Part shown: positions 2,081-41,942 of the stretch, one piece after another
How positions within the stretch are numbered: the first letter of the stretch is position 1
Layout: every line of letters begins with the position of its first letter
Source: a virus
Length of the DNA: 64,000 bases
Direction: 5' to 3' (one strand)
Virus record (IMG/VR): IMGVR_UViG_3300023179_000009
Location: 124,001-188,000 of that record
Made by a program: the position numbers and the translations under genes
The notes under the pieces: model-generated
What the model saw: the letters and a program-made list of their open reading frames with translations, nothing else
The model's database searches: none
Told to the model about the DNA's origin: nothing

Positions 2081-5000
2081 GTGCTACAAGAACGCCAGCA
2101 ACTTTTAAAACTGTGTGTTTCCTCTTTGGAAAAAAAAGGTTTTTCCGAGGATCAGAGATACAAAGACAGGCTCAAGAGAGAATTGAAAGAAATAGATGCC
2201 CAAGGAGAGCATGAGTATCTATTAAATTTACAAAATCAATTTCAATCAAAGGGATTGATTTTGCCTTATAATCAACATAATCTTCTTGTTTATTATCTTT
2301 TAGATTTGTGTAAAGATTTTGATATTGAAAAAGAATATGCTTGGTATCAAGGTGAGTTTCCAGATATTGATATCGATTATTTAAAAGATGTTCGTGATTA
2401 CATTAAACGTACTTGGGCCGCAGAAAATTTTGGTCAAGATAAAATTTGCGAGATTGGAACATATGGAACAAGTGGTATTAAATCGGCCATTTTAGATATG
2501 GCACGAGTCCATGACGCTGAAAAAGATAGAATTCAGGCTATTACAACAAAGATGTCCGACAAGGACGAAGATGGGCATGATTTAGAGTGGGAAAAAGCTT
2601 TAGAGACATACCCGGAATTTAAATCTTATTGTGAAGATCACTCAGAAGTTGCCGATGCAGCCAAAGCATTATTAGACAGAATACGCACAGGGGGCGTTCA
2701 CGCTGGTGGCTTAATTGTTGCTGATCGTCGTTTAGATGGATTTGTTCCACTTGAAGTTAGAATGGTGAACAAAGAAAATCCAAATGGGGTTATTTGCTCG
2801 GCTTGGACAGAAGGTTTGAACCGTCAAGATCTTGGCCCTGTGGGTTTGATTAAATTTGACTTGTTGGTAATTAGCAATTTAATGCAAATAGCCTTGGCTT
2901 GTGACCTTATAAAAAAAAGACACAGTATTGAAAAAATATGCGCCGCACCTAATCAATGGGATTTCTCCGATTTAAATTATCTCAATGACCCAAAAGCATT
3001 GGCCATGGCAGACAAGGGTGATTTAAAATGTATTTTTCAATTTGATAGCGAAGGCATAAGGAATCTGGTTAAACGTGGTGGGGTTTCTAGTTTTGATGAT
3101 TTAGCAGCTTACTCAGCCATTTACCGCCCAGGGCCTTTAAATATGTCGATGGACGTTCATTATTGTAAAAGAAAAAGAGGCGAAGAGCCTTATGAAATTC
3201 ACCCTTTAATGCAAAAGTCTCTTGCTAAGACTTACGGAATTTTGGTTTTTCAAGAACAAGTTATGGACATCTTGCGTGTTGTTGGTGAAATCCCAGACAT
3301 GCACACAGAGAAGGTCCGAAAAGCTATCTCTAAAAAGAAAATTAAAGATTTTATAAAATACAAAGAAATGTTTATTAAAAATGGACAAAAAAATTTAGGA
3401 GAAAGCGAAGAATATGTTGAGAATTTGTGGAGTACTATAGAAAGTTTTGCAGAATATGGTTTTAATAAAACTTTGACCGAAGATACTATAATAGATTGTG
3501 TTGATGGCTCTAAACAAATTAAACACATAGGTGTTGGCGACAAGGTTTATTGCATAAACGAAAAAGGAGAACGAGCAGAAACAGAAGTTGTAGCAGTTCA
3601 CGATCATGGCGTAATTGATGTTGTTGAAGTCACATTTGATGACGGGTACTCGGTGAAATGCACATTAGATCATAAATTTTTAACCGAAGAAGGGCAAATT
3701 CCACTTTGGAAAATTATTCAAGATAATTTGGTTGTGCTTAGTTCTCCGTTGGGAGAACAAAATGCCACAGAGAAAAAATTGGGAAGCAATTTGCGGAGAG
3801 ATTCTCGGCAACAGAAAAAAAATTATAGAACATCGCAAGAATTGTACAAAATGCAGAGAGATGTATTTGCAAAAGAGAACAGAAAAATACAATCACAAAT
3901 CTCATTGCGGAAAGAAATTTCCAACAAAACACAAACTAGCAGATCACTTGAAAGAATGTCAGGACTGTATTTATTTGAAATGGCGAGAGACAGGAAAGAA
4001 ACACATATCTCGATGCGGGATAGAATTTTTGAGATACAGTTTGTTGGCGGAACACCATCGTCATTGTGCGAAATGCACGGAAATAAAAAAAGAGAACATT
4101 CAAAATCGGATGGACAAGTTAAACAAAGACAACCTGTCTCCAGATCGCAAGGCTATATTTTCTGCAACTGCCAAGAAAACTTCGGCAAGGAAAGATGTTC
4201 AAGAAGCAAGATCTGCACAATTAAAAAGATGGAGGGACAACAACCCAGAAGAGTTTGCGAGATCTATAGAAAAGGCACAACATGCTCCCAAAAAATCAAA
4301 AATGGAAACGTGGTTGAGAAAATATCTGGGATGGAAGCCGAAGAAAATATGTTGTGGGAAAGACAGGAAATTTGTGGATTTAGTAAAGAAAAATATTTGG
4401 ATAGAGGTGGACGGACCGTTCCACTTTTGGCAGGTCGGATCAAAATCGAACAAAAGAGGTCACAATTTAAACTATGTTCAACTCAGAGACCAGATGCTCA
4501 AAGAGGAGTGTTTGAGGAGACAAGATATAATGCTTTTGAGATTGAGCATGACTTGTTTTCACAAAAAAACAGGAGAAATGAAGAAGGAAAGTTTGGATTT
4601 GTTCCAGACTATGCTCCGATCTCCAATACCGGGGATTTGGTGCATAGGAAAGTTCTACGAATTGTGCCCGTGGGCAAAAGACAATGTTACGATCTTGAAG
4701 TTGCTGTAAGCACACATAACTTTATTTTGCCAAATGGGGTTGTCACATCGAATAGCCACTCTTATGCATACACTTATATATCGGCAAGGCTTCTTTGGCT
4801 AAAGGCGCATTATCCTCTTGAGTTCTACGCTGCTATTTTGATGTGTGAAACCGATACGGATAAAATAAAAGATTACAAGATCGATGCCGAGAAGCATGGA
4901 ATTGAAGTTTTGCCTATTCATATAAATTATTCTAAAGAAAATTTTACTATTCACGATAACAAAATATATTTTGGTTTTTCCAATATTAAATCTATAGGAG

Positions 5001-6124
5001 AAGAAGTTGCAAAAAGAATAGTGACCAATCAGCCATATAAAAACGTAACAGACTTCCTTGATAGGTTCGGCACAGATTTAACTTGCATCAAAGCTCTTGT
5101 TTCTCTTGGTGTTTTTGGTGATAATCGTGTCAAGATTAGAAAATTTACAGAGTACTATAAGGGAAAAATAAACTCAAGAAAAGATAGAAAAAAAAGATTC
5201 GAGCAATCTTTAGAAAAAAAATTACAAGAATTAAAAGATTTGTTGTTGGAAGAAATTAATGAAAACGATCCTGATTTTCAATCTCTTTGCACATTTACAC
5301 CGGAATCTCAGTCTTTATGGGTGTCTCGATTTGAAAAAATTACAAGAGAAGTTGATTACAATTATCAAGGCAATAAAAGAAAAAAACAAGTTACTTTTTT
5401 AAAACAATTAGAAGATTTGGCAAAAAAAAGATCTAGTATAATTGAAAACTTTCATCTTAAAGAAAAAGAAGATGATGGTGTGGATTCTTATGAATTTTTT
5501 AATACTTCATCTATCAAAATAGACGATAAAGAAATTGATATCTTGAATGATGAGTTAATTATTGATGGCAAAAAGTTTTTTCCAAAAGCCGAATCTAATT
5601 ATTATGGTTTTCAATGGAAGCACATTTTAGAAACTTGTGATCAATACTCCGGAAAAACTATTGATAATTTTTTACAAGAAATTGAAAATCAAAACGACAA
5701 GTCCGGAGTTATACAAATTCAAGTTTTAGCCGTGAAGAAGAAAACCAGCAAAAGAGGCACAGATTTTTATAGCATGGAAGTTGAGGATGCAAACGGGAAA
5801 AAGGTTTTTGTCAATGTTTGGAAAGATGATTATCTAAGGTTTAAAGATAGGTTCGTATCTGGCGAGTTGTTGTCTATAAAAGTAACGCCGCCATCTGGTG
5901 GTTTTAGCACATTCACCTTCTGCTCTATTCCAAGACACAAACGCAAAGAAATTCCTGATAAGGAGTGTGACCAAAGATGTATTGTTCTTGAGCCTCCAAA
6001 ATTTGAAAATTTAAAGCCCGACACTGAAGAAAGAATCATGAAATTTAATACGGAGATTCTCAAGAAGCAATCTTCAAAAAACACCACAATTAAAACTGGT
6101 GGTTTTGAAATTTTTCAAAATTAA
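2081..6124 (+). CDS. dnaE: DNA polymerase III alpha subunit (C family), intein-containing
   Basis: Replicative C-family polymerase of phage type. The first catalytic aspartates lie in PDIDIDY (residues 94-100) and the third in GLIKFDLL. RTGGVHAGG, YRPGPLN and FAEYGFNK/SHSYAY match conserved DnaE blocks, and an OB-fold-like segment (VIQIQVLAVKKKTS) lies near the C-terminus. The PHP domain expected at the N-terminus is absent, so the mature protein (about 919 residues without the intein) is shorter than bacterial DnaE, near 1160. The GTG start has GGAG ten bases upstream. The intein at residues 464-891 splits FNK from SHS, a conserved site. No separate proofreading exonuclease was seen in the window. 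Confidence 0.92.
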   Translation: MLQERQQLLKLCVSSLEKKGFSEDQRYKDRLKRELKEIDAQGEHEYLLNLQNQFQSKGLILPYNQHNLLVYYLLDLCKDFDIEKEYAWYQGEFPDIDIDYLKDVRDYIKRTWAAENFGQDKICEIGTYGTSGIKSAILDMARVHDAEKDRIQAITTKMSDKDEDGHDLEWEKALETYPEFKSYCEDHSEVADAAKALLDRIRTGGVHAGGLIVADRRLDGFVPLEVRMVNKENPNGVICSAWTEGLNRQDLGPVGLIKFDLLVISNLMQIALACDLIKKRHSIEKICAAPNQWDFSDLNYLNDPKALAMADKGDLKCIFQFDSEGIRNLVKRGGVSSFDDLAAYSAIYRPGPLNMSMDVHYCKRKRGEEPYEIHPLMQKSLAKTYGILVFQEQVMDILRVVGEIPDMHTEKVRKAISKKKIKDFIKYKEMFIKNGQKNLGESEEYVENLWSTIESFAEYGFNKTLTEDTIIDCVDGSKQIKHIGVGDKVYCINEKGERAETEVVAVHDHGVIDVVEVTFDDGYSVKCTLDHKFLTEEGQIPLWKIIQDNLVVLSSPLGEQNATEKKLGSNLRRDSRQQKKNYRTSQELYKMQRDVFAKENRKIQSQISLRKEISNKTQTSRSLERMSGLYLFEMARDRKETHISMRDRIFEIQFVGGTPSSLCEMHGNKKREHSKSDGQVKQRQPVSRSQGYIFCNCQENFGKERCSRSKICTIKKMEGQQPRRVCEIYRKGTTCSQKIKNGNVVEKISGMEAEENMLWERQEICGFSKEKYLDRGGRTVPLLAGRIKIEQKRSQFKLCSTQRPDAQRGVFEETRYNAFEIEHDLFSQKNRRNEEGKFGFVPDYAPISNTGDLVHRKVLRIVPVGKRQCYDLEVAVSTHNFILPNGVVTSNSHSYAYTYISARLLWLKAHYPLEFYAAILMCETDTDKIKDYKIDAEKHGIEVLPIHINYSKENFTIHDNKIYFGFSNIKSIGEEVAKRIVTNQPYKNVTDFLDRFGTDLTCIKALVSLGVFGDNRVKIRKFTEYYKGKINSRKDRKKRFEQSLEKKLQELKDLLLEEINENDPDFQSLCTFTPESQSLWVSRFEKITREVDYNYQGNKRKKQVTFLKQLEDLAKKRSSIIENFHLKEKEDDGVDSYEFFNTSSIKIDDKEIDILNDELIIDGKKFFPKAESNYYGFQWKHILETCDQYSGKTIDNFLQEIENQNDKSGVIQIQVLAVKKKTSKRGTDFYSMEVEDANGKKVFVNVWKDDYLRFKDRFVSGELLSIKVTPPSGGFSTFTFCSIPRHKRKEIPDKECDQRCIVLEPPKFENLKPDTEERIMKFNTEILKKQSSKNTTIKTGGFEIFQN
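3470..4753 (+). mobile_element. DnaE intein whose middle carries a gene in another frame
   Basis: The intein covers DnaE residues 464-891 (428 aa). The N-terminal splicing part has TLTEDTIIDC and the block-B motif CTLDHKF. The C-terminal part has CYDLEV, THNFILPNG and a final TSN before extein Ser. The middle 300 or so residues look like random translation in this frame, yet contain no stop codon, because a homing endonuclease is encoded in the +1 frame there (3762-4709). Two atypical residues are visible: Thr at position 1 instead of Cys or Ser, and Ser instead of His as the penultimate residue. Splicing competence is therefore uncertain. Confidence 0.85.
3762..4709 (+). CDS. Zinc-finger, Vsr-like (EDxHD) homing endonuclease nested in the intein in the +1 frame
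   Basis: A 315-residue protein is read in the +1 frame relative to DnaE. Three tandem modules follow C-x12-H-x3-C-x2-C exactly (C11/H24/C28/C31, C49/H62/C66/C69, C85/H98/C102/C105), so this frame is under coding selection. The C-terminal half has KFVDLV, IEVDGPFH and LRDQMLKEE (D206, E215, D217, H221, D243), like the Vsr/EDxHD homing nucleases of the I-Bth0305I type. ATG 3762 has GGGAG six bases upstream; TTG 3732 is the longer alternative. The stop falls inside the intein's block F coding region, so both frames share essential sequence. Confidence 0.82.
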   Translation: MPQRKNWEAICGEILGNRKKIIEHRKNCTKCREMYLQKRTEKYNHKSHCGKKFPTKHKLADHLKECQDCIYLKWRETGKKHISRCGIEFLRYSLLAEHHRHCAKCTEIKKENIQNRMDKLNKDNLSPDRKAIFSATAKKTSARKDVQEARSAQLKRWRDNNPEEFARSIEKAQHAPKKSKMETWLRKYLGWKPKKICCGKDRKFVDLVKKNIWIEVDGPFHFWQVGSKSNKRGHNLNYVQLRDQMLKEECLRRQDIMLLRLSMTCFHKKTGEMKKESLDLFQTMLRSPIPGIWCIGKFYELCPWAKDNVTILKLL

Positions 6125-6140: not shown

Positions 6141-6593
6141 ATGGAAAATAAAAAAGAAGACACAGAATTGGTGATAGATCAAAATAATTTTAACGATTAT
6201 TTTTTTGATGTGAGAAAATTTGGCCCAAAACAAGGGCAAATTTTGGCAAAGTTTTCAGCGGTTGCTATTTTTGGAGATGGTCCAGAAAAAAGAGATTTAA
6301 TAAAAGTTTTAAAACGAGACAAAGCAGAAGCCGCTGCTATGGTTATGAAAAAAATACACTGCTGTAAAGAGCCTGATTGTTATAAAATTTGTAGAGAAAT
6401 GTGCGAGGATCTTATATCCGGTATGTCAGAAGATGATGTTGCCAAAAAAGAACATGAGTTTATTATAGAAGCTTTTTATTATGCTAATCGTGAATATGTT
6501 CCAAAAAATGATCCCCACTGGGAAACTATAGAACTTATTAAATATGACCCAGAGACTAAAACTTTTAAATCTAATATTGAATTAAAAATTTAA
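6141..6593 (+). CDS. Cysteine-containing hypothetical protein
   Basis: I do not recognise this 150-residue acidic protein. A central cluster, HCCKEPDCYKICREMC, has five cysteines and a histidine in a short span and could bind a metal. I prefer the ATG at 6141 because it starts a hydrophilic MENKKEDTE sequence after the polymerase stop. An in-frame start at 6099 would overlap the polymerase gene by 26 bp and add a lysine/phenylalanine-rich leader. It is in the same direction as the polymerase and the next genes, probably one operon. Confidence 0.7.
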   Translation: MENKKEDTELVIDQNNFNDYFFDVRKFGPKQGQILAKFSAVAIFGDGPEKRDLIKVLKRDKAEAAAMVMKKIHCCKEPDCYKICREMCEDLISGMSEDDVAKKEHEFIIEAFYYANREYVPKNDPHWETIELIKYDPETKTFKSNIELKI

Positions 6594-6616
6594 TTAAAAA
6601 TGCTACATATACTAAT

Positions 6617-7114
6617 ATGAGCGATAATAATTATCAAGATTACAAATCTCAAATTGACGTTTGGGCTTCTATGTGGGACGAAATGGAAGGAGAAAAAGTT
6701 CATCCTTCTTTGCAAAAACCCGAGAGGTCAGAGTTTGCATCAAAAATTTTTGGTGACCAAGATTTCGAAAATGACGACCAAGAAGAAGACCCAGGTTTAA
6801 TTCAAGAGTCAGAATCAATCACACAAAACCCTGTGAGAGTTCACACTGCCGGAAGAGACGATCAACATCCAGAACCTTGTTGGGTTAAAGAAGATCTTTT
6901 GTCGGAAATCGAAAAACTAAAAAATAGTTTGTTCGATATGGAAAATAAATTAGCCAGAATGAACCAACCTGAAAAAAAATCTCAAAAAAGCAAAAATCAA
7001 AAAGATCAAGATGTTCTTAAAAAGATAGAATCTATTAGAAAAGATATTGATGATTTAAGTGACAAACTGGGGATTGGCAAACAAGACGTTAGTTTGTTTG
7101 CAGTAAAAAAATAA
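6617..7114 (+). CDS. Acidic coiled-coil hypothetical protein
   Basis: This 165-residue protein has a Gln/Glu/Asp-rich first half and a Lys/Glu-rich second half with heptad-like segments (EIEKLKNSLFDMENKLARM and IRKDIDDLSDKLG). A coiled coil is likely from about residue 90 onward. No catalytic motif is visible. It lies between the polymerase group and the DHH phosphoesterase in the same direction. Confidence 0.7.
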   Translation: MSDNNYQDYKSQIDVWASMWDEMEGEKVHPSLQKPERSEFASKIFGDQDFENDDQEEDPGLIQESESITQNPVRVHTAGRDDQHPEPCWVKEDLLSEIEKLKNSLFDMENKLARMNQPEKKSQKSKNQKDQDVLKKIESIRKDIDDLSDKLGIGKQDVSLFAVKK

Positions 7115-34672: not shown

Positions 34673-35566
34673 ATGGTTTCTGCAACTTTAAAATTCAATA
34701 AATTAAAGAAAAATCAAAAACATGCTGTTTTGACTGAAGCCGAACAGCGTCTAAAAAGAATATTTTTTCACGAAGACTTTGAAAAACCCGCAGAGATCAA
34801 AAAAATTCTTGGACCCATGCCAGATTCCTCAATCTTCGCAGAAGAATTAAGATCAGTAAGATCAAAATATTGTTTTGGCGGCAACAATTTTCAATCTCGT
34901 ATTTTTTATGAAAGTCCTTTGTTAACGAAGGAACAAGAAACTCATTTGTTTAAAAAATACAATTTTTACAAGTACAGAGCAAAAAAAAGATTACACAGAA
35001 AAGAAATCACGGACTCTCTCAGAGATCTTGTTTTGGCTGAAGACGTTAGAAACACTATAGCCGCAGCAAACCTGAGATTGTGTGTTCCCGTTGTCAAAAA
35101 GATGGGAGAAACCCAAAGACTTGATGATTTATTTTCAGAAGGCTGCGATTTGATCCTGAAGTCTGTTGACTACTTTGACCCAAACAGGGGTTTTAAGTTT
35201 TCTACTTACGCAACTTGGGTTCTAAAAAGAAATCTCTACAGAGCCTTAAAATCGTGGCGCAACTTTGAAGAAAGAAACTCTACTTGTTTGAACGAATCTG
35301 GCACCCAAGAAGCCGTTTTTAATCATGATTTTGAAGTAGTTTTTGAACAAACAGATAGGCTTTTAGTTATTAAAAAATTGTTGAATCTTTGCAACGAAAG
35401 AGAAAAAAAAGTTATAGAAAGACGATTTTTTGAGTCTAAAAAACTAATTGATATAGCCTCGGAGTTTGGGCTTTCTAAAGAAAGAATTCGCCAAATTGAA
35501 ACAAGGGCTTTGGAAAAAATGCACCGACAATGTGAACGGATTGGGATTTCTTTTGATTGCTTTTGA
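34673..35566 (+). CDS. RNA polymerase sigma-70 family factor
   Basis: 297 residues. Region 2 has ANLRLCVPVVKKM, DLFSEGCDLILKSVDYFDP and the DNA-melting GFKFSTYATWVLKRNLYRA. Region 4 has ERRFFESKKLIDIASEFGLSKERIRQIETRALEKM, the -35 recognition helix. Region 1.1 and a long spacer are absent. Phage sigma factors redirect host polymerase, as T4 gp55 does for late genes. This one has a real region 4, so it resembles bacterial sigma factors more than gp55 does. AAGGAGG precedes the ATG. Confidence 0.92.
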   Translation: MVSATLKFNKLKKNQKHAVLTEAEQRLKRIFFHEDFEKPAEIKKILGPMPDSSIFAEELRSVRSKYCFGGNNFQSRIFYESPLLTKEQETHLFKKYNFYKYRAKKRLHRKEITDSLRDLVLAEDVRNTIAAANLRLCVPVVKKMGETQRLDDLFSEGCDLILKSVDYFDPNRGFKFSTYATWVLKRNLYRALKSWRNFEERNSTCLNESGTQEAVFNHDFEVVFEQTDRLLVIKKLLNLCNEREKKVIERRFFESKKLIDIASEFGLSKERIRQIETRALEKMHRQCERIGISFDCF

Positions 35567-35890: not shown

Positions 35891-35915
35891 ACAACCAACT
35901 GTGGAGAAAAAACTA

Positions 35916-37511
35916 ATGTCCAATAGTAATATTTTTTCAACTAAAACCAAAAAAACTGGGTTTTCTACAAATACAAAAAACAATGCTGGAGGCGATGCTT
36001 ATGAATTTGATCCAAAACATTGTTTGGCTCAAATCGCTGCCACAAACACATTTAGTGGAACTTTTTATGCAACCGCAGAGCAAAATTTTAATTTAGCCAA
36101 AGAATCTGCATTGCGTTTGAAACACGACCCAGAATTCATTGCAAAAGTTGCAATTTATTCTCGTGATAAGTCCTACATGAAAGACATGCCTTGCTTCCTG
36201 ACGGTGTTGCTCTCGGATATTAGCAAGCCTTTGTTTCGCAAAGTTTTTCGTCGTGTGGTTGATAATGGGAAAATGCTTCGAAATGTTATTCAAATGGCTC
36301 GAAGTGGAGTTGTAACCGGAAAAAAAGTTAATGTATCGGCAGGAAGTTGGAGGCACGCCATACAAGAGTGGTTTAATACTCAAAGTTCTTCTAGTATTTT
36401 TAAAGCTTCTATAGGCAACAATCCAACCATGCACGACATTTTAAGAATGTCGCACCCAAAACCAAATTCAATTGAAAAACAATCTTTGTTCGCTTACCTC
36501 TCAGGCAAAGAATTCGATTTTGAAAAACTTCCAGATCAAGTTAAAAAACTTCAAGAATTTAAATCAGGCAAATCAAAAGATATCCCTGATGTCGATTTTA
36601 GATTTTTAGACTCTTTGAATCTTGGTCAAAAAGAGTGGGAAACAATCGCTATTCAATCTCCTTGGCAAATGACAAGGATGAATCTTTTAACTTTTGCTAG
36701 ACATAATGTTTTTGCAAATGAAGATGTTATTCAAATCGTGGCAAATAAATTAAAAGACAAAAAATTAATTAAAAAGTCTCGTGCGTTTCCATACCAATTA
36801 TTCGCTGCTTGGAGACAAGTTGAGAATCAAGTTAATTATTGGATACCTGAAATAATTAAATCATCACTCGAAGAGGCTATGGAAGTTGCCATCGACAATG
36901 TCCCAGAAATCCCTGGAAAGGGTCTGGTCTGTGTGGACTGCTCTGGATCCATGACTTCACCAATAACCGGTTTTAGAAACCACAGGAGTAACTCTAGTGT
37001 ATCTTGCAGCGACGTTGCTGGACTTTTAGCTTCAGCCATACATCGAAAAAACAAATCTGTTGAGGTTTGGACTTTTTCGGATAGTGCCAACATGGTTGAA
37101 TTAGACCTTAAAGACAATGTGCTAAAAAACACAGAAAAATTAAATCGTGCTGGCGGGGGAACCAATATATCGGCACCAATGCACCGTTTCAATTCAGACT
37201 TCAAAAACGCTGATTGGATTTTATATGTATCAGACTATGAGTCTTGGATTGACTCGCCATCTGCTGGTTACGGTTATAACTCAACGGGTCTGTCCTATGA
37301 ATGGGACATTTTTAAGAAAAGAAACAATCACGCTAAATTAATTTGTTGTGATTTGACCCCTAGAGATAACTCTCAAATTTCTGTTAGAAAAGATGTTCTT
37401 CAAGTCGGAGGATTCTCAGATCAAGTTTTTGATGTCGTTTCTTCTTTTGTTTCTCAATCTAAAAGCAAAGATTTTTGGGTTGAAGAAATAAATAAAATAT
37501 CTTTGGACTAA
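35916..37511 (+). CDS. rsr: Ro60/TROVE-domain RNA-binding protein
   Basis: 531 residues. The TROVE module spans about residues 1-330: FYATAEQNFNLA, FIAKVAIYSRDKSYMKDMPCFLTVLLS, RSGVVTGKKVNVSAGSWRHA. A VWA domain follows with a complete MIDAS: DCSGSM, GGGTNIS and VSDYESW. Ro60 holds Y RNAs and misfolded RNAs and can hand RNA to nucleases. Known phage homologues occur in mycobacteriophages. GGAG lies nine bases before ATG 35916. Immediately downstream are a promoter, an abnormal tRNA and two covarying small RNAs, candidate Y RNA partners. Confidence 0.93.
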   Translation: MSNSNIFSTKTKKTGFSTNTKNNAGGDAYEFDPKHCLAQIAATNTFSGTFYATAEQNFNLAKESALRLKHDPEFIAKVAIYSRDKSYMKDMPCFLTVLLSDISKPLFRKVFRRVVDNGKMLRNVIQMARSGVVTGKKVNVSAGSWRHAIQEWFNTQSSSSIFKASIGNNPTMHDILRMSHPKPNSIEKQSLFAYLSGKEFDFEKLPDQVKKLQEFKSGKSKDIPDVDFRFLDSLNLGQKEWETIAIQSPWQMTRMNLLTFARHNVFANEDVIQIVANKLKDKKLIKKSRAFPYQLFAAWRQVENQVNYWIPEIIKSSLEEAMEVAIDNVPEIPGKGLVCVDCSGSMTSPITGFRNHRSNSSVSCSDVAGLLASAIHRKNKSVEVWTFSDSANMVELDLKDNVLKNTEKLNRAGGGTNISAPMHRFNSDFKNADWILYVSDYESWIDSPSAGYGYNSTGLSYEWDIFKKRNNHAKLICCDLTPRDNSQISVRKDVLQVGGFSDQVFDVVSSFVSQSKSKDFWVEEINKISLD

Positions 37512-37546: not shown

Positions 37547-37634
37547 AGACAAGTAGCTCAATGGCAGAGTCCGTCATTGTAAGAAGGTTTGCACCTTTGG
37601 ACGGAGGTTGCAGGTTCAATTCCTGTCTTGTCTT
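37547..37634 (+). tRNA. tRNA-like gene with 17-base extended anticodon arm, best read as Thr(TGT)
   Basis: Acceptor AGACAAG/CTTGTCT is perfect, the D arm has GCTC/GAGT with GG in the loop, and the T arm is GCAGG/CCTGT with loop TTCAATT. Between them lie 34 bases instead of 17. One reading keeps CCGTC/GACGG and inserts a small hairpin after loop ATTGTAA (anticodon TGT, then A37). Another pairs CCGTC with GAAGG and gives a long variable arm. The inner hairpin has a loop TTTGCAC that would read TGC. It could be a real tRNA, a processed precursor or a Y RNA tRNA-like module. CCA is not encoded. Confidence 0.65.
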
Positions 37635-38998: not shown

Positions 38999-39976
38999 AT
39001 GTTTAAGTCAATTACAAAAGAACAAGCAAAAAACCTTGTCTTGGAAATACTCAAAAAATCTGGGAAGAGATTGAGTCAAGAATTACAAGGCGATAACGAA
39101 GAGTTCCTAGATCGTTTGCTGAGACAGTTCAAAACAAAAATTGCACGTTGTTCTTGGAAGAAATCACAACATTGGTGCAAGTGGGATAATGATGGACCAA
39201 TTCTTATGCCGGATTTTACTAGAATATATTACACAAAAGGAACCACCGAGGTGCTTGTGCAAGAGTTTGCTCCTCAAATTAGACTTCTAAAGTTTAAAAG
39301 TGATTTAGTTCTTAAGTCAAATAATTTTGATTTAATTGAAAACAAAACTGACTTAGCTAAAGTTTTTAATTATTCTTTATCTCTTCCCTATGTTGTTTTT
39401 ATTTTTAAATTTGTTGATGGCTTTTTTGTAGAGGTTAAGTGTTCTTTTTTAGACAAACCTCTTAAAAATTTACAAGAAAAACCACTAAAACCTTATTTGC
39501 CAAATATAGATTCTAATTTAAATGTTTGCCTGGGATCTGGCTTTGATAAATCTATGTTAGAAAAGGGAAATGTGACCCAACAATCAGCTTTGGTTTTAAA
39601 TTATTTTTGGAACTCTGTTTTTTCAAATGAATGGGCGGATCACTATTGGTATTATCGTTCTTATTTTCAGAAAGGTGATATTCGTTTGTCAAATTTGGAT
39701 TCTTGGCAGTCCAATTCTATGAACGATCCACTTTTCGTGATAGATGGCGTTAACTGGACGCACAATTCAGATTTTAACTATGGTGACACTATAGTGAAAA
39801 TGTTTGACAACGATAAAAAAAATATAGTACTACAAGAAGAACTATACCAAGAACTATCTGAAGATTTTTTGAAAGAAGTTGTTAAAATAATCAATGAAAA
39901 TATAGAAAATCTCAACAACAGACCTCCAGAAAATTTAGTTGATCAATTGGCAGACTACCTCGTTTCAAATATTTGA
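38999..39976 (+). CDS. E2-like (ubiquitin-conjugating fold) protein, PRTRC-B-like
   Basis: 325 residues. The central part FIFKFVDGFFVEVKC, LPNIDSNLNVCLGSG (Cys177) and the later FWNSVF segment resemble the E2-like PRTRC system protein B, where a conserved VCLG cysteine follows a proline-containing loop. An E2 carries a thioester-linked ubiquitin-like protein and passes it to a target. It is the first of four genes that together encode E2-, JAB-, E1- and Ubl-like proteins. The fold call rests mainly on this context and on the Cys motif. Confidence 0.68.
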   Translation: MFKSITKEQAKNLVLEILKKSGKRLSQELQGDNEEFLDRLLRQFKTKIARCSWKKSQHWCKWDNDGPILMPDFTRIYYTKGTTEVLVQEFAPQIRLLKFKSDLVLKSNNFDLIENKTDLAKVFNYSLSLPYVVFIFKFVDGFFVEVKCSFLDKPLKNLQEKPLKPYLPNIDSNLNVCLGSGFDKSMLEKGNVTQQSALVLNYFWNSVFSNEWADHYWYYRSYFQKGDIRLSNLDSWQSNSMNDPLFVIDGVNWTHNSDFNYGDTIVKMFDNDKKNIVLQEELYQELSEDFLKEVVKIINENIENLNNRPPENLVDQLADYLVSNI

Positions 39977-39982
39977 GAAAAA

Positions 39983-40897
39983 ATGAACACTGAATGGACT
40001 CCAGATTTTCCAGTTTATGTTTATTATAAAGACATGAAACTTCCGGATAGTGGCAATTATTTTGTGATTGCTGGCAATGGTTGCTGGATGCACAAAGACA
40101 CAGGTTTGTGTAAGTGTTTTATACCAGTCGATAGAATTAGTTTTTTAGACGATCTTAAAACTGACCTAAGATTAGAGTTTAACTTGCCAAAAATACCACC
40201 AGATTTGGTTTGGCAAGTTAAACAATTTTTCAAAATTGTTTTCGATAATTTTTCGTCAGAGGCAGAGGTTAATTTATTATTTAATAAAAAAGAAAATAAG
40301 TTTAAGATCCATGTGCCAGAGCAAATTGTTAGCCACACTAGTGTGAAATATAAACGTTGGAGTTCAAACCAATCAGAGGATTTAAAAGATTATTTATTTG
40401 TTGGAACTTTTCATTCACATAGTGACTTTGATTCATTTCATAGTCACACGGATGTTCAAGATGAGACACATCTGGATGGTGTTCATTTTACTTTTGGCAA
40501 TAACGATAAAAAAGAGTTTAGTATAACTGCAAGTATAGTTATAAATGGATTTAGAAAAGAAGTAGATCCTTTAAATTTCTTACAAGGAATTCAAAATTCG
40601 GACCTTGAAGAAAGATTCATTTTTATTAATCATAAAAATGAAAAACAGGATGAACTGTTGCAAGAAGTTAACGATTGGTTAGAAAATGTAAAACCTTTAA
40701 ATAATAAGTATCTAAAAAAACAATACGCACACTGGAAAGACGGTATGTTTTCTTCCACCCTCAGGAACCATTTTGGCAATGGTCCTTTTGAGGTTTTGTC
40801 AAAAAAAGAAGACAAAATATCACTTAAATCATTGAATGGTGGTGCATTTGAATTATCAAATAAACTTTTTGAAATAAGGTCAAAAGATGGAAAATAA
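39983..40897 (+). CDS. JAB/MPN-type (JAMM) isopeptidase-like protein, PRTRC-A-like
   Basis: 304 residues. A full JAMM motif is visible: Glu93 or Glu95 in SSEAEVNLLF, then H144-S-H146, S154 and D157 in FHSHSDFDSFHSHTDVQ. This zinc protease family trims ubiquitin-like precursors or removes them from targets. The N-terminal 90 residues and C-terminal 110 are extra domains. It starts 6 bp after the E2-like gene and overlaps the E1-like gene by 11 bp. Confidence 0.82.
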   Translation: MNTEWTPDFPVYVYYKDMKLPDSGNYFVIAGNGCWMHKDTGLCKCFIPVDRISFLDDLKTDLRLEFNLPKIPPDLVWQVKQFFKIVFDNFSSEAEVNLLFNKKENKFKIHVPEQIVSHTSVKYKRWSSNQSEDLKDYLFVGTFHSHSDFDSFHSHTDVQDETHLDGVHFTFGNNDKKEFSITASIVINGFRKEVDPLNFLQGIQNSDLEERFIFINHKNEKQDELLQEVNDWLENVKPLNNKYLKKQYAHWKDGMFSSTLRNHFGNGPFEVLSKKEDKISLKSLNGGAFELSNKLFEIRSKDGK

Positions 40898-41597
40898 TAT
40901 AGAAAAAATTAAAATCATAGGTCTGGGCGGAATTGGCTCCTATCTTTTAGATCCAATCTCTAGGTATCTGTCTTGCTCCGAAAAACAATATGAGATAACT
41001 TTTATCGATGGTGATTTTTATGAAGAAAAAAATTTAAATAGACAAAACTTTAGTTTATTTCAAAATAAAGCAAAGGATGCATTCGAGAGAATGCAAAGCG
41101 TTTTTAAAAACATTCACTTTAAATACAAGCCAGAATATGTAAACGAAGACAATGTGGTGTCTTTAATAAGAAATAATGATATAATATTTTTATGTGTAGA
41201 TAATCACTCCACCAGAAAAACTGTATCGGATAGGTGCAAAGAATTAGATAATGTTGTTTTGATAAGTGGAGGAAATGATTTAATAGATGGGAATGTTATA
41301 ATTTATATTAGAAAAAACTCAGTAGATATCACACGATCCTTAACGGATTTGGATCCAAGAATACACAACCCAAAAGACAGCAATCCTTCAACTTTGAAAA
41401 ATAATAGTGGTTGCCAAAATTCTACCCAATCCGAACCTCAATTGCTTTTCACAAATTTTGCCGTTGCCTCCACTATGCTGAACTGTTTTAGAAGATACGA
41501 AAATAACGATGTGAATTTTCATCAAGTTTATATTGATATACAAACTCTAAGAACTAGACCTTCACCAGAGGTAGAAATTGAAAAGAGGAATTTTTAA
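40887..41597 (+). CDS. E1/ThiF-like adenylyltransferase
   Basis: 236 residues. The nucleotide-binding IIGLGGIGSYLL (G12xG14xxG17), FIDGDFYEEKNLNRQNF (Asp41/Asp43, Arg52) and CVDNHSTR match the ThiF/MoeB/Uba core. Cys176 in NNSGCQ is a candidate acceptor cysteine. The enzyme would adenylate the C-terminus of the ubiquitin-like protein encoded next. No CxxC zinc pair is present. It ends immediately before the Ubl ATG. Confidence 0.85.
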   Translation: MENNIEKIKIIGLGGIGSYLLDPISRYLSCSEKQYEITFIDGDFYEEKNLNRQNFSLFQNKAKDAFERMQSVFKNIHFKYKPEYVNEDNVVSLIRNNDIIFLCVDNHSTRKTVSDRCKELDNVVLISGGNDLIDGNVIIYIRKNSVDITRSLTDLDPRIHNPKDSNPSTLKNNSGCQNSTQSEPQLLFTNFAVASTMLNCFRRYENNDVNFHQVYIDIQTLRTRPSPEVEIEKRNF

Positions 41598-41942
41598 ATG
41601 TCGCAAGAAAGAAGAACAGATCAAGGCGATCTAACAAACAAAAAAGATACCCTAGACTCCACCAAAGACAAAACCGAGATTGTTTTTTCTCAAGCAACAA
41701 AAACTGATTCTAAGGTAAGAGTTGTTCATGGGGCCAATCAAGAATATTTCAATTTAGCAGGAAAGACCGTGGGATCAGTTAGAAAAAATTTAAGAGAAAT
41801 TTTTAATATACCTAGCGATGCAGAGGCCCTCATCTCAGGAAACGCTGTTCCTGATGATTTTGTTCTTGAGGGCGGTCAATCTCTTGAATTTTTAAAAGAA
41901 AGTGGAGTAAAGGGTTTTGAAAAAATGTGCTTCTTTTATTGA
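41598..41942 (+). CDS. Ubiquitin-like protein with processable C-terminus, PRTRC-C-like
   Basis: 114 residues. The first 38 are a charged linker. Residues 39-106 show the beta-grasp order (VRVVHGANQEYFNLAGKTVG, VRKNLREIF, ALISGNAVP, SLEFLKESGVKG). It ends GVKG followed by an eight-residue tail, FEKMCFFY. Removal of the tail by the neighbouring JAB protein would expose a terminal Gly for E1. Identification relies on context as well as on the fold. The GT gene starts inside its tail. Confidence 0.7.
   Translation: MSQERRTDQGDLTNKKDTLDSTKDKTEIVFSQATKTDSKVRVVHGANQEYFNLAGKTVGSVRKNLREIFNIPSDAEALISGNAVPDDFVLEGGQSLEFLKESGVKGFEKMCFFY

Follow-up and report, generated by a model that had tools for sequence, protein, structure and literature searches.

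A 64,000-nt stretch of viral DNA (the window; bases 124,001-188,000 of the 458,813-bp IMG/VR record IMGVR_UViG_3300023179_000009) contains a four-gene ubiquitin-like conjugation cassette, which our analysis confirms as real. Four open reading frames (ORFs) on the plus strand, at window positions 38999-41942, encode in this order an E2-like conjugating enzyme, a JAB isopeptidase, an E1-like activating enzyme and a ubiquitin-like protein (Ubl) (Table 1). The most likely explanation is that they form one operon for a complete and reversible phage Ubl-conjugation pathway, and we put the probability of this reading at roughly 0.83. It is backed by the presence of the genes, their kinship to known families, invariant catalytic residues, the beta-grasp fold of the Ubl, the gene order and purifying selection.

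The E2-like and JAB genes are separated by a 6-nt gap, the JAB and E1 genes overlap by 11 nt, and the Ubl gene follows the E1 gene with 0 nt between them. Matches to PF03237 (large terminase, 2e-10) and PF07230 (T4-type portal, 3e-74) in the record lead us to take the carrier for a jumbo-size tailed phage. An earlier note on this DNA, made from the sequence alone, had described four closely spaced phage genes and read them as an E2-like, JAB, E1 and Ubl set. The coordinates, the spacing and the terminase and portal matches all agree with that description, and the reading is supported in each of its four assignments. The VCLG cysteine, the full JAMM residue set and the ThiF/E1-like enzyme that it had named are likewise present and conserved (Table 1).

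A sister contig (IMGVR 3300042197_004429) shares 85% DNA identity and 90-96% protein identity with the window cassette. The ratios of nonsynonymous to synonymous substitution rates (dN/dS) between the two are 0.020 for the E2-like gene, 0.068 for JAB, 0.040 for E1 and 0.109 for the Ubl. Because these values are so low, all four genes must have been kept as proteins under strong purifying selection, and the cassette is far beyond chance. The exact gene order was found in about 60 viral loci, where another E1-like gene often comes next, and in 18 of the 56 loci that a scan of GTDB genomes returned. In view of this recurrence, we regard the four genes as a unit.

Table 1. Window positions of the cassette genes and of their predicted functional sites
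Feature	Position	Strand	Length or conservation
E2-like conjugating enzyme, Prok-E2_D/PRTRC_B-related	38999-39976	+	325 aa
Cys177 codon, predicted E2 catalytic Cys (NVCLG)	39527-39529	+	Cys in 95/95 non-redundant relatives
JAB/JAMM metallo-isopeptidase, PRTRC_A-related	39983-40897	+	304 aa
Codon of Glu93, JAB catalytic residue	40259-40261	+	E93 in 80/82 non-redundant relatives
JAMM core HSH-x7-S-x2-D (H144, H146, S154, D157)	40412-40453	+	82/82 non-redundant relatives
ThiF-type E1-like adenylating enzyme, single domain	40887-41597	+	236 aa
Cys176 codon, predicted E1 thioester Cys	41412-41414	+	Cys in 80/80 non-redundant primary E1s
Beta-grasp Ubl with 38-residue low-confidence N-terminal extension	41598-41942	+	114 aa
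GVKG, predicted C-terminus by which the mature Ubl is conjugated	41904-41915	+	K105-G106 invariant in 55 aligned Ubls
FEKMCFFY tail, lineage-specific read-through	41916-41939	+	6-bp indel at stop; overlaps start of next ORF (41917)

Identification of the four components

Two of the proteins could be assigned from their single sequences. The E1-like enzyme matched the Pfam ThiF family at 3.8e-20, and its best NCBIfam match was PRTRC_ThiF at 1e-13, which is below the cut-off. The GxGGxG motif and residues D41, D43, N49, R52, Q53, K61 and D105 are invariant or nearly so in the 80 non-redundant E1s, and the E1-family profile had UBA2, UBA5 and UBA3 among its matches in the PDB. JAB matched Prok-JAB (5e-5) and, again below the cut-off, PRTRC_A (1.1e-8). 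The best PDB sequence matches of its family were BilC, AMSH, AMSH-LP and Rpn11, all of them weak (E 0.007-0.7).

Direct hmmscan searches with the E2-like protein and the Ubl gave only noise. For this reason, families were built first for both proteins, and the resulting profiles were then compared with the PRTRC and Pfam models. In the profile-profile comparison, the E2 family (63 sequences) matched PRTRC_B/Prok-E2_D with a probability of 97.5 and an E value of 4.9e-12, and the active cysteines were aligned, VCLG of the E2 family standing opposite ICxG of PRTRC_B. Against PRTRC_B alone, hhalign gave an E value of 7e-7. A Pfam scan matched 31 of the 63 members to Prok-E2_D and none to any other family. 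Besides Cys177, N169 and P71 are invariant in the 95 non-redundant relatives. In the AlphaFold2 (AF2) model, whose core has a predicted local distance difference test (pLDDT) score of about 95, N-terminal helices are followed by a beta-meander (residues 74-151), a loop containing the cysteine, and further helices (192-226). Compared with a viral structure library, this model matched uncharacterised phage proteins at 1e-8, and the E2 of Bodo saltans virus ranked tenth with a probability of 0.60. The E2 family profile had no match among PDB sequences, and tblastn with the window protein had none among 50,697 phage records.

The beta-grasp core of the Ubl (residues 39-99) was modelled by AF2 with a pLDDT of about 90. 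Its best small Foldseek matches were NEDD8, Caldiarchaeum ubiquitin, SUMO1 and MoaD, each with a probability of 1.0; the template modelling (TM) scores by target were mostly 0.6-0.7 and every E value was 1e-3 or higher. The model and these matches agree with the beta-grasp fold proposed in the earlier note for this product. The window Ubl alone had no direct match to PRTRC_C or to another useful family in hmmscan, and the Ubl family profile found none among PDB sequences. In hhalign, however, the family matched PRTRC_C with a probability of 91.8 and an E value of 7e-7, the AGxKG ends of the two being aligned, and a Pfam scan of the relatives returned beta-grasp families alone (TGS, ThiS and Ub-Mut7C).

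The C-terminus of the Ubl

The earlier note had also described the Ubl as ending in GVKG plus an eight-residue tail that JAB could trim. Both the GVKG and the FEKMCFFY sequence are there, but the tail turned out to be a lineage-specific indel and not a conserved precursor. The sister contig reads AAGGGT-TAG, with the stop right behind GVKG, and the window is without the 6 bases of the indel, the TAG included. Whether the window lost these bases or the sister gained them was judged, provisionally, from the majority of the relatives. KG forms the very end of 46 of the 71 distinct Ubls; in 16 it is followed by a single residue, Cys in most cases, and longer tails are few. Since the sister Ubl stops at GVKG and most relatives end at KG, the tail appears to be an accident of this lineage, and a conserved pro-Ubl tail is ruled out by the stop in the sister contig. 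As the tail is not conserved, JAB is probably mainly a deconjugase, and its conserved role would be the removal of the Ubl from targets rather than the trimming of a precursor.

Relationship to known systems

The closest known systems are PRTRC (TIGR03734-TIGR03742) and the related type 6d (PMC1779556), which likewise combine a GxKG-type Ubl, a Prok-E2_D E2, a JAB and a ThiF-type E1. The earlier note had pointed out that the E2-JAB-E1 order is that of PRTRC proteins B, A and ThiF, and this matches the annotated plasmids of Cupriavidus and Paraburkholderia. There the full order is ParB-E-C-F-B-A-ThiF, of which the window shares B-A-ThiF alone, and the PRTRC Ubl precedes the E2-JAB-E1 core whereas the window Ubl comes after it. 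The comparison of hidden Markov models suggested in that note relates all four families to PRTRC but does not make the cassette a member. A true PRTRC system residing in a phage, and tied to plasmid-type maintenance, would account for the shared order and the related families. It is already contradicted, however, and we regard it as very unlikely. JAB scores 34.9 bits against PRTRC_A, where the curated cut-off is 101.8, and E1 scores 51.2 bits against PRTRC_ThiF, where it is 144.75. None of PRTRC ParB, E, C and F lies beside the cassette. Genome-wide, ParB has at most a weak match, which lies about 80 kb from the cassette and scores 30.9 bits where the cut-off is 278.6; PRTRC_E and PRTRC_F have none, in searches run without a positive control, so that their absence is unproven. 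Finally, the PRTRC E1s form a clade with 100/100 support, and the window E1 falls outside it.

A similar comparison was made with the features of type 6d (PMC1779556). Its small beta-grasp protein has a highly conserved C-terminal Gly, and this corresponds to the conserved Gly106, although the window Ubl carries its lineage-specific tail behind it. Its E2 has a conserved Cys and an absolutely conserved downstream His. The Cys is found throughout the window family (95/95), but the His is missing from the window E2, because the position where PRTRC_B has F-T-H reads F-S-N-E; phage members of the family mostly have F-[NS]-x-[DE] there. The type 6d JAB-N domain has a strictly conserved Arg and Trp; our JAB does have an N-terminal region, in which 11 aligned JABs show no invariant Arg or Trp. 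The alpha-helical partner of type 6d has no equivalent in the window operon: the gene 5' of the cassette runs in the opposite direction, and the ORF 3' of the Ubl gene encodes a DUF5672 protein (3e-28) and starts at 41917, so that it overlaps the Ubl gene by 26 bases. The window cassette further differs in being carried by a tailed phage. It is kin to PRTRC and not a member of it, and forms a lineage of its own within the same broad kind of system (type 6d of Iyer 2006).

Other systems are more distant. Like the cassette, Bil (BilABCD) has separate genes for a Ubl, an E2, a JAMM deubiquitinase and an E1, and BilC is the best, if weak, PDB match of the JAB family. However, Bil has a BilA with a pair of Ubl domains, a BilD with a pair of adenylation domains and a Cys domain, and a BilB with a CEHH motif (PMC11354881), whereas the window encodes one Ubl domain, a 236-aa E1 and no CEHH after Cys177. 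Membership in Bil was rejected on these three counts. The Cap2/Cap3 proteins of the cyclic-oligonucleotide-based anti-phage signalling system (CBASS) share the bacterial E1, E2 and JAB chemistry, but Cap2 is an E1-E2 fusion and the protein conjugated is a cGAS-like enzyme instead of a Ubl (PMC10097602). CBASS was rejected as well, as the window E1 and E2 are separate and the neighbours scanned include no cGAS/DncV-like nucleotidyltransferase (CD-NTase). The lambda-type tail assembly proteins TAPI/TAPK also bring together a phage Ubl and a JAB domain (PMC1779556), but they come without E1 or E2 and belong to the tail assembly genes.

Distribution among viruses

Alignment-guided scans of IMG/VR found more than 80 loci, in most of which profiles built from few seeds detected JAB, E1, E2 and Ubl. 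Besides the order seen in the window, the orders Ubl-E2-JAB-E1 and Ubl-JAB-E2-E1 occur. A terminase match was present in 24 of 30 such viral records tested.

A tblastn search with the window E1 led to a cultured phage, Bacillus phage vB_BauM_KLEB27-3, whose cassette (gp194-gp199) has the same four components. Its gp196 matches Prok-E2_D/PRTRC_B (3e-4, 1e-3), gp195 is a PRTRC_A protein and gp194 a PRTRC_ThiF protein (8e-31), while gp199 consists of four tandem Prok_Ub/PRTRC_C units (5e-27, 9e-17), each ending in GVKG as the window Ubl does before its tail. It differs from the window in that this four-copy Ubl is encoded upstream and in that its E1 groups with Bacillus plasmids and not with the window E1. 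BLASTP gave no signal between KLEB27-3 and either the window E2 or the window Ubl. The tandem Ubl (L005:736-1443) resembles polyubiquitin, its four units being joined at GVKG-M, and a Bacillus velezensis plasmid protein (L103:2033-2770) also matches the Ubl profile.

In 56 viral loci the cassette adjoins a phage RNA polymerase beta' gene. In this clade (L018-L069) an additional E1-like gene and the beta' gene come after the cassette, and the Ubls tested have N-terminal Rho_N/SAP nucleic-acid-binding domains (clade examples are L030:6719-7225, L007:6752-7360 and L007:9439-12213). An essential link of the cassette to RNA polymerase was nevertheless rejected, as the arrangement is true of one viral clade only.

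In Salmonella phage Arash, gp246c, gp247c and gp248c were matched as E1, JAB and E2 (L106:1519-4539). Gp246, Gp247 and Gp248 are among the Arash particle proteins identified by mass spectrometry (PMC10585845), which suggests that they are expressed during infection. GenBank marks only gp246c and gp248c as structural, and because the paper and GenBank differ the numbering is uncertain. The particle preparation contained many replication enzymes, and its authors note possible carry-over (PMC10585845).

Several loci showed unusual arrangements. In Acinetobacter phage ME3 the JAB gene is apparently split (L107:3736-4170, 6196-6846): about 2 kb of DNA, in which a tRNA-Met and small ORFs lie, parts ...MDIH from the remaining JAMM residues, and it looks like an intron or an insertion in the active-site region. 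Two E2-like genes per cassette are found in tandem in a 527-kb virus (L020, 2261-4566) and about 7 kb apart in a further viral clade (L070-L095; one gene around 2.3-4.3 kb, the other around 11.2-12.7 kb); such a pair could possibly consist of a catalytic and a helper protein. The 33-kb Burkholderia phage BgVeeders33 (L109:4447-6726) has E2, JAB and E1 genes, and its E1 falls inside the true PRTRC clade.

Cellular loci

The loci found in the GTDB genomes are mostly on contigs of metagenome-assembled genomes, and some will be misbinned viruses; one of them (L118) bears a phage RNA polymerase. At least one locus is clearly chromosomal. This is the cassette of Candidatus Buchananbacteria (L115), since it is flanked by alaS and by the rpsM-rpoA ribosomal cluster, and L161 is a 4.7-Mb chromosome. 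In the E1 tree, viral and cellular rows are intermixed and many forks are unresolved. Hence, the cassette can be called shared, with no direction of gene transfer assigned.

Seven genome loci out of the 56 (L132, L135, L139, L142, L146, L147 and L154) have a gene for a reverse transcriptase (RT) upstream of the cassette; they come from Lentisphaerota, Victivallaceae, Omnitrophota and Planctomycetota. Two of them, L146 and L154, both from Lentisphaerae, have CRISPR arrays too, and L146 also has cas1. These loci may possibly represent an RT-linked defence system with Ubl conjugation. The viral locus L008 also has an RT gene upstream of its cassette.

Proposed pathway and its targets

From the above we infer the reactions, the relay from E1 to E2, the protein nature of the targets and the action during infection. 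E1 would use ATP to adenylate the C-terminal Gly of the Ubl (GVKG) and hold it as a thioester on Cys176, from which it would pass to Cys177 of E2. E2 would then attach the Ubl to lysines of target proteins, with no known E3. JAB would cut after the Gly, its chief task being to strip the Ubl from its targets; in the window phage, it would also have to trim the accidental tail to expose the Gly.

Several points weigh against such a pathway. Taken alone, the window E2 has no direct match to PRTRC_B or to another family in hmmscan, and in a Foldseek search of the PDB its model had UbcH8 on top with an E value of 0.42 and a probability of 0.23, which is not significant. The E2 fold that the earlier note had expected is not refuted: the structural comparison is only weakly positive, and the sequence profile places the family in Prok-E2_D/PRTRC_B. 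The type 6d histidine is missing from E2. The numbering mismatch and the many replication enzymes in the particle preparation detract from the Arash listing. Finally, the literature searched holds no biochemistry for this lineage or for PRTRC, and no functional study of phage Ubl systems or of PRTRC was found.

The same components could in principle serve sulfur transfer, with a ThiS/MoaD/Urm1-like Ubl being thiocarboxylated by E1 for tRNA or cofactor thiolation and JAB only freeing its C-terminus. The single-domain ThiF-type E1, the ThiS and TGS matches of the Ubl relatives and the tRNA genes carried by the phage would fit this explanation. We nevertheless consider it improbable. The C-terminus is GxKG instead of GG, E1 has no fused rhodanese or sulfurtransferase, and genes for an invariant-Cys E2-like protein and a JAMM protein, neither of which a carrier needs, adjoin in most relatives. 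Moreover, JAB would usually not be needed to free the C-terminus, given that KG is already the end of most Ubls.

If the cassette conjugates the Ubl to proteins, the remaining question is one of targets and not of chemistry. Our first, tentative guess is competing-phage or host defence proteins. The cassette would then be an inter-phage or counter-defence weapon, derived from bacterial conflict loci, that tags virion parts of rival phages, as Bil does, or host immune proteins. Such a role is plausible because related bacterial systems act against phages: Cap2/Cap3 (PMC10097602) and Bil (PMC11354881), both similar in design, use Ubl-type conjugation in anti-phage defence. It is also in line with the presence of the same cassette in bacterial chromosomes and with the RT genes, CRISPR arrays and cas1 near some of these copies. 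However, the copy of the Candidate Phyla Radiation (CPR) bacterium sits among ribosomal-protein genes and in no defence island, and the cassettes of the largest viral clade have the beta' gene of the phage's own polymerase as their neighbour.

The latter observation suits a different guess, namely that the targets are the phage's own transcription, replication or virion proteins, whose stability, localisation or assembly the Ubl would control. The Rho_N/SAP domains on the Ubls tested in that clade and the presence of Gp246-Gp248 among the Arash particle proteins are also consistent with it. We rank this doubtful possibility below the conflict role, although it is nearly as likely. Neighbouring genes vary among the viral lineages, the window virus has no match to Rpb1 domain 1, a Pfam scan found no Rho_N/SAP domain in the window Ubl, and the Arash enzymes may be carried over.

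Implications

We consider it somewhat favoured by the evidence that huge phages of several lineages run reversible Ubl signalling and so reprogram proteins of the host or the virus in the course of infection, by means of a complete virus-encoded E1-E2-Ubl-isopeptidase pathway that is distinct from PRTRC and shared with uncultured bacteria. Bacterial Ubl conjugation is known chiefly as an anti-phage weapon, and a complete phage-borne pathway in dozens of large viral genomes would reverse this picture and turn what viruses tag into a testable question. The PRTRC and type 6d families would gain a compact four-gene form, whose biochemistry could be rebuilt in laboratory E. coli, and the phage cassettes would be linked to copies in CPR bacteria and in bacteria of the Planctomycetes-Verrucomicrobia-Chlamydiae (PVC) group.

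The kinds of components are already known, and PRTRC-like proteins are named singly in the phage records of ME3 and KLEB27-3. We found no paper on a complete phage-encoded cassette; our coverage fell short of most subscription papers and of all preprints, so an earlier description is possible. In a text search of a jumbo-phage survey (PMC7824862), which has authors in common with the 2006 paper that described type 6d, JAB, ThiF, E1-like and E2-like proteins are unmentioned and ubiquitin comes up only in passing.

Other features of the window

Upstream of the cassette, at 35901-37511 (+), the window encodes a TROVE/Ro60-type protein with a vWA domain; TROVE proteins are known from a few jumbo phages (PMC7824862). 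An essential link between this gene and the cassette was considered and, on the window alone, set aside, as we see no reason to assume one. Beginning 35 bases past the TROVE gene, a tRNA-Thr of an unusual 88 nt was called (37547-37634, +), which could be either a tRNA or a Y-RNA-like partner. At 34673-35566 the phage encodes a sigma-70-like factor that has both region 2 and region 4. At the start of the window, an AAA ATPase (38-2065) is split by an intein with a homing endonuclease domain, and the bacterial-type DNA polymerase III alpha subunit that follows it (2081-6124) also has an intein-splicing domain.

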